38,100 nt of DNA from an uncultured Pelagibacteraceae bacterium (GTDB lineage Bacteria; Pseudomonadota; Alphaproteobacteria; Pelagibacterales; Pelagibacteraceae), in assembly GCA_902556065.1 (NCBI GenBank), contig CACDUV010000007.1:1-38100 (forward strand). The letters are read 5' to 3'. The position numbers were made by a program, and so were the translations under genes. Numbering within the stretch: position 1 is the stretch's first letter; each line of letters starts with the position of its first letter. Under the pieces are notes generated by a model. It was not told the DNA's origin, did no database searches, and saw nothing but the letters and a program-made list of their open reading frames with translations. Shown here in pieces: positions 25,172-31,094 of this stretch.

Positions 25172-26614
25172 ATGGATAACAGACAAAAAGAAATAAATAA
25201 TTTAAAAGATTATAAATATGGTTTTTCAACGGATATAGAAAATATTCAAGCTCCAAAAGGTTTGAATGAAGATGTTATTAAATTCATTTCTAATATTAAA
25301 AAAGAACCTGCATGGATGCTTGAGTTTAGATTAAAATCTTTTGAAAGATTTAAAGTATTAAAAGAACCAGATTGGCAAAAACCTAAATTTCCAAAAATAG
25401 ACTATCAAGATTTATATTATTACTCTGCTCCTAAAAGTATGAAAGATAAGCCAAAGAGCTTAGATGAATTGGATCCTAAACTTTTAGAAACTTATAAAAA
25501 ACTTGGAATTCCTTTACAAGAGCAAGCGAGATTAAATGGAATAGCTGTCGATGCTGTATTTGACTCGGTCTCAGTAGCTACTACTTTTAAAGATGAATTG
25601 ACAAAACAAGGTATTATATTTTGCCCTATATCAGAGGCAATTCAAAATCACCCTGAATTAGTAAAAAAATATTTAGGCTCCGTAATCCCAACAAGCGATC
25701 ATTTTTTTGCAACATTAAATTCAGCGGTTTTTACAGATGGTTCTTTTGTATACATTCCAGAGGGTGTTAGATGTCCAATGGAACTATCAACTTATTTCAG
25801 AATTAATGCATCTAATACAGGTCAATTTGAAAGAACTTTAATTATTGCTGACAAAGGAAGTTATGTTAGCTACTTAGAAGGATGTACAGCTCCAATGAGA
25901 GATGAAAATCAATTACATGCAGCTAATGTTGAATTAATTGCACTTGATGATGCGGAAATAAAATATTCAACAGTTCAAAATTGGTATCCAGGCGATAAAG
26001 ATGGTAAAGGTGGAATTTATAACTTTGTAACAAAAAGAGGTTTATGCAAAGGAAAAAATTCAAAAATTTCATGGACACAAGTTGAAACGGGCTCAGCAAT
26101 TACCTGGAAGTATCCTAGTTGTATTCTTAAAGGGGATAATTCTGTTGGTGAGTTCTACTCAATAGCTATTACCAACAATCATCAAAAAGCTGATACTGGT
26201 ACTAAAATGATCCATCTAGGTAAGAATACTAAAAGTAAAATAATTTCGAAAGGAATATCAGCAGGTAGTTCAGATATGACTTACAGAGGATTAGTTGATA
26301 TTTCATCAAAAGCTAAAAATTCAACTAATTATACTCAGTGTGACTCTTTGTTAATGGGCAATAAATGTGGGGCTCATACTGTTCCATATATAAAAAATAA
26401 AAATTCTGAATCTAATATTGCTCATGAGGCAACCACATCCAAGATTAGTGAAGAGCAGTTACATTATTGTCAACAAAGAGGATTAAACCCAGAGGAAGCT
26501 GTTGGCTTAATTGTTAACGGTTTTTGTAAGGAGGTATTGCAACAATTGCCCATGGAATTCGCTGTAGAAGCTCAAAAACTTGTAGGTATCAGTCTAGAAG
26601 GAAGTGTAGGTTAA
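25172..26614 (+). CDS. sufB: Fe-S cluster assembly scaffold subunit SufB
   Basis: 480 residues, standard SufB length. SufB forms the SufBC2D scaffold on which clusters are built. Family features are clear: [12 protein letters not shown] near the start, the [21 protein letters not shown] segment, [39 protein letters not shown], and the end with [30 protein letters not shown] and GLIVNGFC. It is the first structural gene of the operon, two bases after iscR and one base before sufC. Confidence 0.97.
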
Positions 26615-26615
26615 T

Positions 26616-27350
26616 ATGCTTAAAATAAATAATTTAAATGCAACAATTGATAACAAGTCTATTTTAAACGGACTATCCTTAGATATAAATCCTGGTGAGG
26701 TTCATGCAATTATGGGCCCTAATGGATCTGGAAAAAGTACATTATCAAATATTCTATCTGGAAAAAAAGGCTATGAAGTTTCTGGGGAAGTTCTTTTTGA
26801 AGAAAAAGATTTATTTGAGCTTGAAACAGAGGAAAGAGCGCACAAGGGTATATTTTTAGCTTTCCAATATCCTCTAGAAATTCCAGGTGTAAATACAAAT
26901 ATATTTTTAAAGACTTCTTTAAACGCTGTAAGAAAAGCTAGGGGTGAGAAAGAGCTTGATGCTATTGAATTTTTAAAATTGGTAAAAGAAAAATCTAAAG
27001 AACTAAAATTTGATGAGGAAAAATTAAATAGACAATTAAATGTAGGTTTTTCTGGAGGAGAAAAAAAGAAAAATGAAATTTTACAGATGTCATTACTAGC
27101 TCCAAAACTATCAATTTTAGATGAAACTGACTCTGGTTTAGATATTGATGCTTTAAAGATTGTTGCAGATGGAGTTAATACATTGAGAGATAAAAACAAT
27201 TCATTTTTAATTATTACACACTACCAAAGATTACTTGATTATATAAAACCTGACTTCGTTCACGTTTTGATGAATGGAAAAATTGTAAAATCTGGTGGTC
27301 CAGATTTAGCTTTAGAATTAGAAAAAAAAGGATATGAAAATTTTAATTAA
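26616..27350 (+). CDS. sufC: Fe-S cluster assembly ATPase SufC
   Basis: 244 residues. It is an ABC-type ATPase of the SufBC2D complex. Walker A is GPNGSGKST, the Q-loop is in FLAFQYP, the signature is FSGGEKKKNEI (the degenerate SGGE form of SufC), Walker B is LSILDETDSGLD, and the switch His is in IITHYQR. It starts one base after sufB and ends immediately before the sufD ATG, with no gap, so the three scaffold genes are translated as a block. Confidence 0.97.
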   Translation: MLKINNLNATIDNKSILNGLSLDINPGEVHAIMGPNGSGKSTLSNILSGKKGYEVSGEVLFEEKDLFELETEERAHKGIFLAFQYPLEIPGVNTNIFLKTSLNAVRKARGEKELDAIEFLKLVKEKSKELKFDEEKLNRQLNVGFSGGEKKKNEILQMSLLAPKLSILDETDSGLDIDALKIVADGVNTLRDKNNSFLIITHYQRLLDYIKPDFVHVLMNGKIVKSGGPDLALELEKKGYENFN

Positions 27351-28598
27351 ATGAAAGAACAATTACAAAAAGATTTTGATAACAGTATAAAAAATTTAAG
27401 TTTATCTCAAAAAGATATTGAAATAAAAAAATTTTGTTTAAACAATTTTATAGACAAAGGTTTTCCAAACAGAAAAGAGGAAGATTGGAAATTTTCAGAT
27501 CTTAATCAAATAATAAAAAAAAATATTGGAGAACTTAGTTTTTACAATGATCAAGCATCTACTAATAAAGTCGATACGTCTGTATTTGTAGATGGATTAG
27601 AGCATAATAAAATAGTTTTTATAAATGGAAGAATTGAAAAAATTGACTTTGAATATGAAAAAAAAGATCAAATAGAAATAATTGATCAATCAGAAACTAT
27701 AAATGAATTCAAAAATAGCAATTCATTATCTGACTTGAATAATGCCTTTACTAATAAATGTTTTAAAATATTGGTAAAAAAAGGTTATCAATTAGTAAAA
27801 CCTCTTATTATCTATCATACTACGAACTCAAAAATTTGGTCTAAAAACATTAATTTAAGACTTAATTTTGAACTAGATAAAGATAGTTCTCTAAGATTAA
27901 TTGATTTATTTAATGATACATCCCAAAAGAATTTTTTAAATATATTTTACAATTTTGAAATAAAGGAAAATGCAGTTTTAAAAAATTATAAAGTAGATAA
28001 ATTTGAAAATAAAAATATTAAGTATTCTTTTAACAATATTGATCAAGATAAAAACAGTATTTCTGAAACATTTATTTTATCTTCTGGATCAAATTTTTCA
28101 AAAAATGAGATAACTTGTAATTTAAATGGAGTTTATGCATCAGCTTTTGTAAATGGTGTTTTTTCATTGAATAATGAGAAACATCACGAAATTAGATCAA
28201 TAATAAATCATTTAACTGAGAATACAAAAAGTTATCAACTAATTAAAAGTGTTTTAGATGAAAATTCTAAAGCAGTGTATCAAGGAAAAATATTTGTAAA
28301 TTCAGATGCTCAGAAAACGGATGGATACCAATTGAGTAAAGCAATATTATTAAATAAAGATTCAGAGTTTAATGCTAAGCCAGAACTAGAAATTTATGCA
28401 GATGATGTTAAATGCTCGCATGGTTCAGCTTCAGGTAGTTTAAATGAGGATTCTATATTTTATTTAATGTCTAGAGGTTTAAGTTATCAGCAATCAAGAG
28501 AGCTATTAATTAATGGTTTTCTGCTTGATGTTGTTGAAAAAATTACTGACTCAGAAATAAAAAACTTAATAAAAAATATGATTGGAATTAAAGAATGA
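27351..28598 (+). CDS. sufD: Fe-S cluster assembly subunit SufD
   Basis: 415 residues. The N-terminal part is divergent and helical, with FPNRKEEDWKFSDL typical of SufD. The conserved beta-helix C-terminal half includes GVYASAFVNGVFS, NEKHHEIRSIINH, VYQGKIFVN, KTDGYQLSKAILL, DVKCSHGSASG and GLSYQQSRELLINGF. The His in CSHGSA is the SufD residue known to help iron acquisition. It partners with SufB and SufC. The last bases overlap the sufS ATG (ATGA). Confidence 0.95.
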   Translation: MKEQLQKDFDNSIKNLSLSQKDIEIKKFCLNNFIDKGFPNRKEEDWKFSDLNQIIKKNIGELSFYNDQASTNKVDTSVFVDGLEHNKIVFINGRIEKIDFEYEKKDQIEIIDQSETINEFKNSNSLSDLNNAFTNKCFKILVKKGYQLVKPLIIYHTTNSKIWSKNINLRLNFELDKDSSLRLIDLFNDTSQKNFLNIFYNFEIKENAVLKNYKVDKFENKNIKYSFNNIDQDKNSISETFILSSGSNFSKNEITCNLNGVYASAFVNGVFSLNNEKHHEIRSIINHLTENTKSYQLIKSVLDENSKAVYQGKIFVNSDAQKTDGYQLSKAILLNKDSEFNAKPELEIYADDVKCSHGSASGSLNEDSIFYLMSRGLSYQQSRELLINGFLLDVVEKITDSEIKNLIKNMIGIKE

Positions 28599-29812
28599 AT
28601 ATTGATCAGATAAAAAAAGAATTTCCTATTTTTGATGAAAAAATTCAGAATAATGATCTAGTTTATTTAGATAGTGCGAATTCATCACAAAAACCCAAAA
28701 TAGTTGTGGACAGAATTAATGAATTTTATACCAAACAATTTTCAAATGTTGGTAGAAGTGTCCACTATCTTGCAGTTGCTGCTACAAATTTATATGAAAA
28801 TACCAGAACATCTGTTCAAAAATATATTAACGCTAAAGATAAAAATGAAATTGTTTTTACAAAAGGTGCCACGGAAGCATTAAATTTGGTTGCTAATACA
28901 TTAGGTCAAAGCTATTTACAGGAGGGTGACGAAGTATTGATCACAGAACTTGAGCACCATTCAAATTATGTGCCATGGCATTTCTTAAGAAAATCAAAAA
29001 ATATTAAAATTAATTTTGCCGAAATAAACAATGAAGGTGAAATTACTCTTGAAGAAATAGAAAAGAAAATAACTCCAAAAACAAAATTAATCTCAATTAC
29101 TCATTTGTCCAATGTAACAGGTGCAATTTTACCAGTAAAAGAAATTGCCCAGCTTGCACATTCAAAAGGAATAATTGTTGTAGTTGATGGATGTCAGGGG
29201 GCACCACATTTAAAATTAGATATGCAAGACTTAGATTGTGATTTTTATGCAATTTCATGTCATAAAATGTATGGACCTACAGGTTTAGGAGTTCTTTACG
29301 GTAAGAAAAAATGGTTAGAAGAATTACCTCCATACCAAGGTGGCGGAGGAATGATTAATGAAGTTAAAAAAGACAGGATTTCCTATGGTGAATTGCCCAA
29401 TAAGTATGAGGCAGGGACTATGGCTACAGCACAAGTAATTGCTTTTGATCAATCAATAAAATTTTTAGAAAGCATTGGTATAGAAAATGTAATGAAGCAT
29501 GAAGCTGATTTAGTTGCATACGGGCAAGAATTACTGCAAAAAAATAATTCGGTTAAACTAATAGGTAATCCAAAAAATAAAGGTGGAGTGTTATCTTTCA
29601 CGGTAGAAGGAGTTCATCCTCATGATATAGCAACAATCTTGGATGAAGATGGTGTTGCGATAAGAGCAGGACATCATTGTTGTCAAATTTTACATGATAA
29701 ATTAAATATCCCAGCAAGTGCTAGAGCATCAGTTGGTATTTATAATACAAAAGAAGATTTAGATCAGCTAAATGAGTCAATTAAAAACTGTAAAAAAATA
29801 TTTAATCTATAA
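28595..29812 (+). CDS. sufS: Cysteine desulfurase SufS
   Basis: 405 residues, class V aminotransferase fold, group II. It removes sulfur from cysteine for cluster assembly. Visible are LDSANSSQKP near the N-terminus, ELEHHSNYVPW, VVDGCQGAPH, the PLP lysine in ISCHKMYGPTGLGVL, and the catalytic loop Cys in RAGHHCCQ. It overlaps sufD by 4 bases and sufU by 1 base (TAATG). The partner that accepts the persulfide is likely SufU, encoded next; no sufE is present here. Confidence 0.96.
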   Translation: MNIDQIKKEFPIFDEKIQNNDLVYLDSANSSQKPKIVVDRINEFYTKQFSNVGRSVHYLAVAATNLYENTRTSVQKYINAKDKNEIVFTKGATEALNLVANTLGQSYLQEGDEVLITELEHHSNYVPWHFLRKSKNIKINFAEINNEGEITLEEIEKKITPKTKLISITHLSNVTGAILPVKEIAQLAHSKGIIVVVDGCQGAPHLKLDMQDLDCDFYAISCHKMYGPTGLGVLYGKKKWLEELPPYQGGGGMINEVKKDRISYGELPNKYEAGTMATAQVIAFDQSIKFLESIGIENVMKHEADLVAYGQELLQKNNSVKLIGNPKNKGGVLSFTVEGVHPHDIATILDEDGVAIRAGHHCCQILHDKLNIPASARASVGIYNTKEDLDQLNESIKNCKKIFNL

Positions 29813-30276
29813 TGAATTTAAAAGAGCTTTATCAAGAAATTATATTAGAACACGGTAAAAACCCTAGAAATCTTAGAAAGACAGAAGATTTTAATAAAGA
29901 TGCAAAAGGTAATAATCCACTTTGTGGTGACAATGTTCATGTTTATTTAAAACTAAATGGACAAAAAATTGTAGAAGATGCATCTTTCGAAGGGAGTGGT
30001 TGTGCAATTTCAATGGCCTCAGCTTCTATAATGACAGATTTGATTAAAGGAAAAAATGAGCATGAGGCTAAAGAAATAGTTGAGGATTTTTTAGGCATGA
30101 TTAAAGAAAATCCTGAATTAAAATCTAAGTATTTAAGTGAAGATGAAAAAACTAAGCTAATGTGTTTATCTGGTGTTAAGCAATATCCAATGAGAGTTAA
30201 ATGCGCAACGCTATCTTGGCACACAATGGTTTCTGCTTTTGAAGAAAAAACAGAAGAAGTAAAAACAGAGAATTAA
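29812..30276 (+). CDS. sufU: SufU-type sulfurtransferase/scaffold protein
   Basis: 154 residues of the IscU/SufU fold. Likely ligands are Cys38 and Asp40 (LCGDN), Cys64 (GSGCAIS) and Cys131 (RVKCATLSWHT). A longer loop between the second and third conserved cysteines (PELKSKYLSEDEKTK) marks the SufU subtype rather than IscU. In SufU systems a zinc site accepts sulfur from SufS and passes it to SufB. The order sufS-sufU supports that role. An alternative name is IscU-like scaffold. Four bases separate it from the next gene. Confidence 0.9.
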   Translation: MNLKELYQEIILEHGKNPRNLRKTEDFNKDAKGNNPLCGDNVHVYLKLNGQKIVEDASFEGSGCAISMASASIMTDLIKGKNEHEAKEIVEDFLGMIKENPELKSKYLSEDEKTKLMCLSGVKQYPMRVKCATLSWHTMVSAFEEKTEEVKTEN

Positions 30277-30279
30277 ATT

Positions 30280-30600
30280 ATGTCAAAAAAAGAACAGATC
30301 ATTGAAGAAATAAGAAAAATTTATGACCCAGAGTTACCTGTAAATATCTACGAATTAGGTTTGATTTATGATATTAAAGTAAAAGATGAAAAGTTTGCTA
30401 TTATTAAAATGACCTTAACAACCCCAAACTGTCCAGTTGCGGAAAGTTTACCAAAAGAGGTGAAAGAGGGTGCAATGCAAGTCGAAGGTATTGAGGATGT
30501 TGATCTTGAATTAGTTTGGGACCCACCTTGGAATAAAGATATGATAACGCTGCAGAAAGAATTAAAGAAATCATGTCAAATGCAGAAAAAGATTCTTTAG
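30280..30600 (+). CDS. SUF-associated MIP18/DUF59 family protein (SufT-like), 3' end apparently altered
   Basis: 106 residues. The core fits the DUF59 (FeS_assembly_P) family: IYDPELPVNIYELGLIYDI, MTLTTPNCPVAE, and DLELVWDPPWNKDM. The conserved Cys in TPNCPV is present. Homologues in other alphaproteobacteria end about a dozen residues after WDPPW in a stretch like MSDEARLELG (from memory). Here the frame after Met88 instead reads MITLQKELKK and then unrelated residues, and it runs over the coding region of sufA in another frame. So the last about 19 residues are probably not original. The family helps cluster maturation or transfer. Confidence 0.85.
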   Translation: MSKKEQIIEEIRKIYDPELPVNIYELGLIYDIKVKDEKFAIIKMTLTTPNCPVAESLPKEVKEGAMQVEGIEDVDLELVWDPPWNKDMITLQKELKKSCQMQKKIL

Positions 30601-30851
30601 GTGTAAGAGTTTCAGTTAAATCAGGTGGTTGTGCAGGTATGTCTTATGTAATGGAGTATACCAAAGAAGTAAATCCAAATGACGAAGTCATTGAGGAAAA
30701 AGGTGTAAAAGTATTTGTCGATTCAGCGGCTATTATGTATTTGCTTGGAACAGAAATGGATTACAAAAAAGAGGAACTATCCTCTTCATTTGTATTCAAT
30801 AATCCCAACGAAACAGAGAGATGTGGCTGCGGGGAATCCTTTAAAATCTAG
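30573..30851 (+). CDS. sufA: A-type Fe-S carrier SufA, probably truncated or frame-disrupted at its N-terminus
   Basis: From the first usable ATG (30573) there are 92 residues. Cys20 (GGCAGMS), Cys84 and Cys86 (RCGCGES) are the three cluster cysteines of A-type carriers. The frame upstream of this ATG is open back to 30537 and encodes DNAAERIKEI (30543-30572), which matches the first conserved helix of SufA, but no ATG, GTG or TTG is available there. The expected MITLT start is lost or lies in the other frame (see findings). The protein as read would lack its first strand and helix. It ends the suf operon. Confidence 0.8.
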   Translation: MSNAEKDSLGVRVSVKSGGCAGMSYVMEYTKEVNPNDEVIEEKGVKVFVDSAAIMYLLGTEMDYKKEELSSSFVFNNPNETERCGCGESFKI

Positions 30852-30923: not shown

Positions 30924-31094
30924 ATGAACAAATTTGAATTTAAAAATCTTGTTAAAAACCTGAAAGATTCAATTAAAGAAAAAACGTTCTTTAAAGATCT
31001 TCGTAAAGAAGTAGAGACCGGTGCTAACGGTACTCAAGATTACGTTGTTAAAAAAGGTATTAACAAAGATACAATTGCAACAACCAGACAGTAA
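30924..31094 (+). CDS. Small conserved-looking protein of 56 residues, function unknown
   Basis: An ATG at 30924 opens a 57-codon frame ending in TAA at 31092. The product has a charged, helical N-terminal half (MNKFEFKNLVKNLKDSIKE, then FFKDLRKEVE) and a C-terminal half with GANGTQDYVVKKGINKD. There is no signal peptide or membrane segment. All three Gly codons are GGT, Arg includes CGT, and Asn is mostly AAC; this is unlike the AAT- and AGA-rich neighbours and resembles highly expressed genes. It stops 9 bases before the end of the convergent glnA. I do not recognise the family. A basic, soluble, abundant small protein is the most that can be said. Confidence 0.68.
   Translation: MNKFEFKNLVKNLKDSIKEKTFFKDLRKEVETGANGTQDYVVKKGINKDTIATTRQ

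Follow-up and report, generated by a model that had tools for sequence, protein, structure and literature searches.

A 60-base segment is absent from the sufT-sufA junction of one Pelagibacteraceae assembly, possibly through an amplification or assembly error

The window analysed here, a 38,100-nucleotide stretch of contig CACDUV010000007.1 from an uncultured Pelagibacteraceae bacterium, carries a suf operon (25172-30851) in which sufU, sufT and sufA lie in succession on the forward strand. The features at and around the sufT-sufA junction are as follows:
29812..30276, + strand: sufU, encoding 154 aa that match NifU_N, next to sufT on its 5′ side.
30280..30600, + strand: the sufT ORF, 106 aa, composed of 88 SufT residues and 18 residues from the sufA region read in another frame (ITLQKELKKSCQMQKKIL).
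30534..30536, + strand: a TAA in the sufA frame, 5′ of the DNAAERIKEI stub.
30542..30545, + strand: TGAT, a direct repeat of 4 bases on which the deletion join falls, located by alignment with relatives.
30543..30572, + strand: sufA codons 9-18 (DNAAERIKEI), in frame and without a preceding start codon.
30573..30851, + strand: the sufA ORF, 92 aa when counted from the earliest start it can use, compared with about 110 aa when intact.

After the TAA at 30534-30536, the sufA frame reads AGA TAT GAT AAC GCT GCA GAA AGA ATT AAA GAA ATC before reaching the ATG at 30573, and it contains no ATG, GTG or TTG ahead of that codon. The sufT and sufA frames overlap at 30573-30600, the sufA frame being -1 relative to that of sufT, which continues 28 bases beyond the sufA start and presents CAG AAA AAG near its stop. 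A sequence-only reading of this region had placed DNAAERIKEI at 30543-30572 behind a stop at 30534, with no start before 30573 and with MITL in the sufT frame, and the letters and open reading frames agree with it on each of these points. The sufT-sufA locus was matched once in its own genome (G000, contig C7), with no second copy there; this draft genome totals 995,793 bases over 43 contigs and is 74.5% complete. Downstream of sufA, a small ORF at 30924-31094 (MNKFEFKNLVKNLKDSIKEKTFFKDLRKEVETGANGTQDYVVKKGINKDTIATTRQ) precedes a glutamine-synthetase-like gene and produced no Pfam match at E 0.01.

The comparison with close relatives revealed that the window lacks exactly 60 bases at this junction, within the 30-90 extra bases for which the sequence-only reading had proposed to inspect the relatives. 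Among six close relatives, isolate AG-447-L02 (L095) is the one nearest to the window across most of the operon, though not in sufA. Its sufT also adjoins sufA, 87 SufT codons carry a single amino-acid change and the 92 SufA codons are the same in amino acids as those of the window. In contrast, its junction is 60 bases longer, with the stop and the start overlapping as TAATG, and it encodes a SufT of 99 aa ending in MSEAAKLELNL and a SufA of 110 aa beginning with MNQIIKLS. When 60 bases were removed from L095, the result corresponded to 131 bases of the window with three mismatches, the removal having five equivalent placements with TGAT as the shared repeat. In this alignment the missing segment is bounded by ATGAT in sufT and AGTGAT in sufA. 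As in a deletion between direct repeats, the extra 60 bases of the relatives are flanked by TGAT and a single copy is left in the window. The window thereby lacks SufT residues 89-99 (11 codons) together with the stop codon, as well as SufA residues 1-8, start included, and after the join the SufT frame reads 18 codons into sufA. The proposal made from the letters, one loss that joins ...GATATGAT to ...GATAAC at the cost of an end of each gene, fits the relatives, and so does the proposed departure of SufT from its expected C-terminus after WDPPWNKDM, where the foreign tail of 18 residues was found. Three details needed correction: the GAT presumed to be shared at the join is part of the full repeat TGAT; although the sufT end and the sufA start are indeed gone, no spacer was lost with them, the stop and the start overlapping in relatives; and the dozen or so sufT codons presumed lost are 11 plus the stop, with 8 codons gone from sufA. 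Of 1200 overlapping positions at which a 60-base deletion could be placed in L095, 31 offered repeats of at least 4 bases, a non-independent count in which adjacent placements share repeats, and longer repeats in the vicinity (of 7 bases with spacing 24 and of 6 with spacing 89) were left unused by the loss.

Junction length was taken as the distance separating the WDPPW codons in sufT from the SGGC codons in sufA, which is 104 bases in the window. Across 170 loci, in which many genomes are represented twice, this distance was 164 bases in 159, 158 in six, 190 in one locus from another family and 104 in three that are copies of the window; 166 of the 170 were longer, and the one unscored locus (L030) is from another family. 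Strict motifs scored 142 of these loci (138 at 164 bases, one at 158 and the three window copies at 104) and looser motifs another 24 of the remaining 28 (18 at 164, five at 158 and one at 190), while L024, L147 and L164 were assigned 164 bases from where their SufT tail and GGC motif lie. The strict set represented 109 distinct junction sequences, 107 of them at 164 bases, one at 158 and one being the window; the sufT stop and the sufA start overlapped by one base in 93 and by four in 14 of the 109. Six loci (L019, L022, L025, L026, L027 and L028) showed a distance of 158 instead of 164 bases, that is, two codons shorter.

Neither relatives with the identical junction nor family SufT proteins naturally ending in such a tail, the two observations that the sequence-only reading had named as evidence against its proposal, were found. 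A degenerate junction pattern matched one of 399 genus genomes (one genome per species), which was the window's own, and among the 142 strict-motif loci the window's SufT tail occurred in its three copies and nowhere else. A protein search matched 303 of the 399 genomes and, among the matches listed, the sufA open frames other than the window's had at least 113 codons against its 104. A DNA search gave matches in 31 of 61 genomes (60 relatives plus the window's own) and, in many close relatives, the match was broken in two at 30542-30545. The exact junction had no match in viral contigs, in a search that may omit records near the window's own. The short junction was thus not found in the relatives examined, which leaves other cells of the window's species unaddressed: the listing of relatives may omit records very near the window, and each species is represented by one genome in the collections, where a deletion widespread in the window's own species would look private.

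Both predicted products are altered. Residues 4-95 of the window's SufT match TIGR02945 (SUF_assoc), with the C-terminal residues replaced and a score of 131.4 bits, under the NCBIfam cut-off of 143.4, whereas the intact SufT of L095 reached 146.0. Against PF01883 (FeS_assembly_P), the same product scored 58.9 bits (gathering threshold 23.5) over profile positions 1-69 of 73, which is near full length. The window's SufA scored 117.4 bits against TIGR01997 (sufA_proteo, cut-off 136.2), its match starting at position 20 of 107 and running to 107, and so it attained neither the score nor the full length; the intact L095 SufA covered positions 1-107 with 134.8 bits, itself slightly below the cut-off. 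The shortened product nevertheless scored 112.7 bits against TIGR00049 (cut-off 58.8) and 59.4 against PF01521 (26.3), the latter match starting at profile position 22 of 110. As in the SufA/IscA A-type carriers with solved structures (1r94, YfhF; 2d2a, SufA), the core and the SGGC and CGCG cysteine motifs are retained, also in the alignment of L095 with 1r94, and by score and motifs the sufA ORF would qualify as an A-type carrier. It would differ from them by the absence of the first 18 residues if translation begins at 30573. In the alignment of L095 SufA with 1r94, this start corresponds to chain residue 17, and the part before it would comprise the initial strand and helix of the A-type carrier fold. 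The same genome encodes a second A-type carrier (C19:9093-9410), for which ErpA was the best among the single-protein models (104.7 bits against a cut-off of 117).

The codons that remain give little sign of decay. The 92 sufA codons presented no amino-acid changes and 15-20 silent changes against each of the six close relatives, and within the 10-codon stub the one amino-acid difference was with L096 alone. Compared with L095, sufT showed one amino-acid and 10 silent changes. At sites where all six relatives agree and the window differs, the sufA core presented no amino-acid and one silent change, and sufT the same numbers. Judged by these counts, there would be little room for an unselected period, and the deletion would either have happened very recently, not exist in the cell or have no effect; with no amino-acid change in 92 sufA codons, a real loss would therefore have to be very recent. 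Along the suf operon, divergence from L092 and L093 declines (the window differs from L092 by approximately 53 amino-acid and 194 silent changes in sufB and by 0 and 16 in the sufA core), which suggests recombination within the operon. Similarly, genome G179 (L064, L293) shows 99% identity across 201 bases of gltB (L234:14560-14760) and 93% across 230 bases of sufA (window 30621-30850), a contrast that may hint at mosaic ancestry.

Direct observation covers the loss, its 60-base size, the TGAT repeat at the join and the lack of such a loss in the relatives examined. As to its origin, we consider an error of amplification or assembly, confined to one assembly, to be slightly likelier than a real deletion. 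The names of near relatives indicate that the window's genome is probably a single-cell genome, and genomes of this kind were presumably made with WGA-X. During whole-genome amplification of the single cell, a DNA strand would have jumped between the two TGAT copies or, alternatively, the join would have arisen at some later step up to assembly; the living cell would then probably carry normal sufT and sufA. Speaking against an artefact, an assembler should be unable to collapse a repeat as short as 4 bases unaided, and therefore a real or an amplified molecule probably carried the join. Consistent with an artefact, the short junction occurred in the window's genome only, among those searched, the sufA codons appear to have been kept as described above, and the same fragmentary draft contains frameshifts in genes read as gltB and ilvB. 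According to PMC1855051, phi29 amplification joins DNA at short complementary bases, present in 90.9% of the direct joins of <10 kb, and such MDA chimeras resemble the join described here in having few shared bases between nearby segments. They differ in frequency, which argues against an artefact: in the same study, one E. coli cell yielded 475 mapped chimeras, of which 406 (85%) were inverted and 69 direct, only 11 of the latter being <10 kb, the rarest of the four classes in its Table 1. When WGA-X was compared with ordinary MDA, read deletions were slightly more frequent and read-level chimeras no different (PMC5519541). In the literature on SAR11 pseudogenes in single-cell genomes, nothing apparently relevant appeared among the matches listed.

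The frameshifts were identified by comparing 849 kb of G000 with relative G105 (a single contig of 1,437,930 bases, 8,000 of them masked). Among 1017 G105 ORFs of at least 60 aa (738 of at least 90 aa), three presented frameshift pairs in G000; from their protein sequences we took them to be gltB, ilvB and hemC, the first two read as housekeeping genes. In gltB (contig C2; L234:14560-14760), six T replace seven and the gene is broken; 14 of the 15 relatives searched were matched and all carry seven, including G179. In the ilvB-like gene (acetolactate synthase large subunit; contig C10; L276:3880-4120), six T replace five and the gene is also broken, all 14 matched relatives out of 15 having one base fewer. 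Read base by base in the alignments, both one-base frameshifts are thus private to the G000 assembly among the relatives searched. The hemC case was set aside, its missing base being located immediately 5′ of the likely start codon. In the reverse direction, 1016 G000 ORFs gave four frameshift pairs, in ORFs of 63, 63, 71 and 118 aa; on alignment, G000 and G105 differ in the 118-aa ORF by small gaps in a short repeat. End mismatches of G105 ORFs against G000 numbered 19 at the C-end and 41 at the N-end (12 and 41, respectively, in the reverse comparison), figures taken as counts, with sufT and sufA individually inspected.

As a control, 80 relative loci plus part of the window (1.41 Mb) were compared with 27 of 29 G105 ORFs, two having been dropped for low median coverage. 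The control relatives were treated as single-cell genomes from their isolate names, which, like AG-447-L02, we assume to be single-cell plate names; several titles say MAG, and MED-G42 is a plain MAG. Low coverage affected 21 of 1361 gene instances: three belonged to the window itself (sufT, sufA and the sufU end), six were frameshift pairs (three in L158, two in L134 and one in L097) and 12 were end mismatches, seven of them in one variable 194-aa ORF, one in another and four at the sufT start. Of the latter, L106, L147 and L155 had a normal start on inspection, L142 being the fourth case. The three pairs of L158 fall within about 1.3 kb (L158:15755-17082), perhaps a low-quality stretch. Control loci of relatives also show frameshift pairs (6/1361), which fits an artefact. 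Against one, the rate in G000 (2/738) is not above theirs, and no second deletion like that of sufT-sufA was recognised among the 1361 control gene instances. Indels in T runs are a different error class that does not prove a 60-base artefact.

A real and very recent deletion in the cell's lineage, with replication slipping from one TGAT copy to the other, is a serious candidate, although we give it somewhat less than an even chance. The cell would then make a SufT with a foreign tail and, if SufA is made at all from 30573, a protein minus its first 18 residues, and it would depend on the second A-type carrier on contig C19. The presence of this carrier agrees with such a deletion, as do the clean join and a repeat that exceeds those at most placements, and the deletion could extend beyond one cell since the genomes searched represent one per species. 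On the other hand, it was absent from every relative scored, selection on sufA and sufT appears unrelaxed and, if all lesions were real, it would coexist with the gltB and ilvB breaks. Published work points both ways. A sufA deletion by itself is nearly neutral in E. coli and becomes lethal in air when iscA is lost too (PMC2682760), and S. aureus without sufT grows approximately as the wild type in full defined medium (PMC4982691). Against such a deletion, E. coli has further carriers plus the ISC system, SufT is described as essential in M. tuberculosis (PMC9045647; PMC4982691), and the sole A-type carrier of M. smegmatis resisted deletion attempts (PMC10301553).

It is very improbable that the junction is a selected working arrangement, either a short SufA with a re-tailed SufT or a SufT-SufA fusion produced by -1 frameshifting in 30573-30600. 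The overlap that the two frames now have, the CAG AAA AAG shortly ahead of the sufT stop and the retained SGGC and CGCG motifs would suit it. Against it, the arrangement is present in a single genome, no conservation can be demonstrated, 18 N-terminal SufA residues are gone, and the GCAGAAAAAGA stretch is already present in relative L095, hence nothing is new there. We hold it to be highly doubtful that a SAR11 species has welded sufT and sufA in overlapping frames, with a 92-residue SufA or a frameshifted SufT-SufA that functions despite lacking the first strand and helix. Slippage between two TGATAAC copies within sufA, the other option of the sequence-only reading, has similar bases near the join and nothing more in its favour and was refuted, with practically no probability left, because the missing bases include the sufT end together with the sufA start.

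Altogether, the short junction is either an assembly or preparation error or the accidental mutation of one lineage, ordinary in both cases and no new gene arrangement. It calls for caution, as gene breaks in a single SAR11 draft assembly can mimic evolutionary events, and such a clean case, with 60 bases, a 4-base repeat and many intact relatives, could serve as an example for examining amplification-made deletions against reads. If the loss is real, one cell would have been able to survive, at least for a short time, with neither SufT nor SufA intact.
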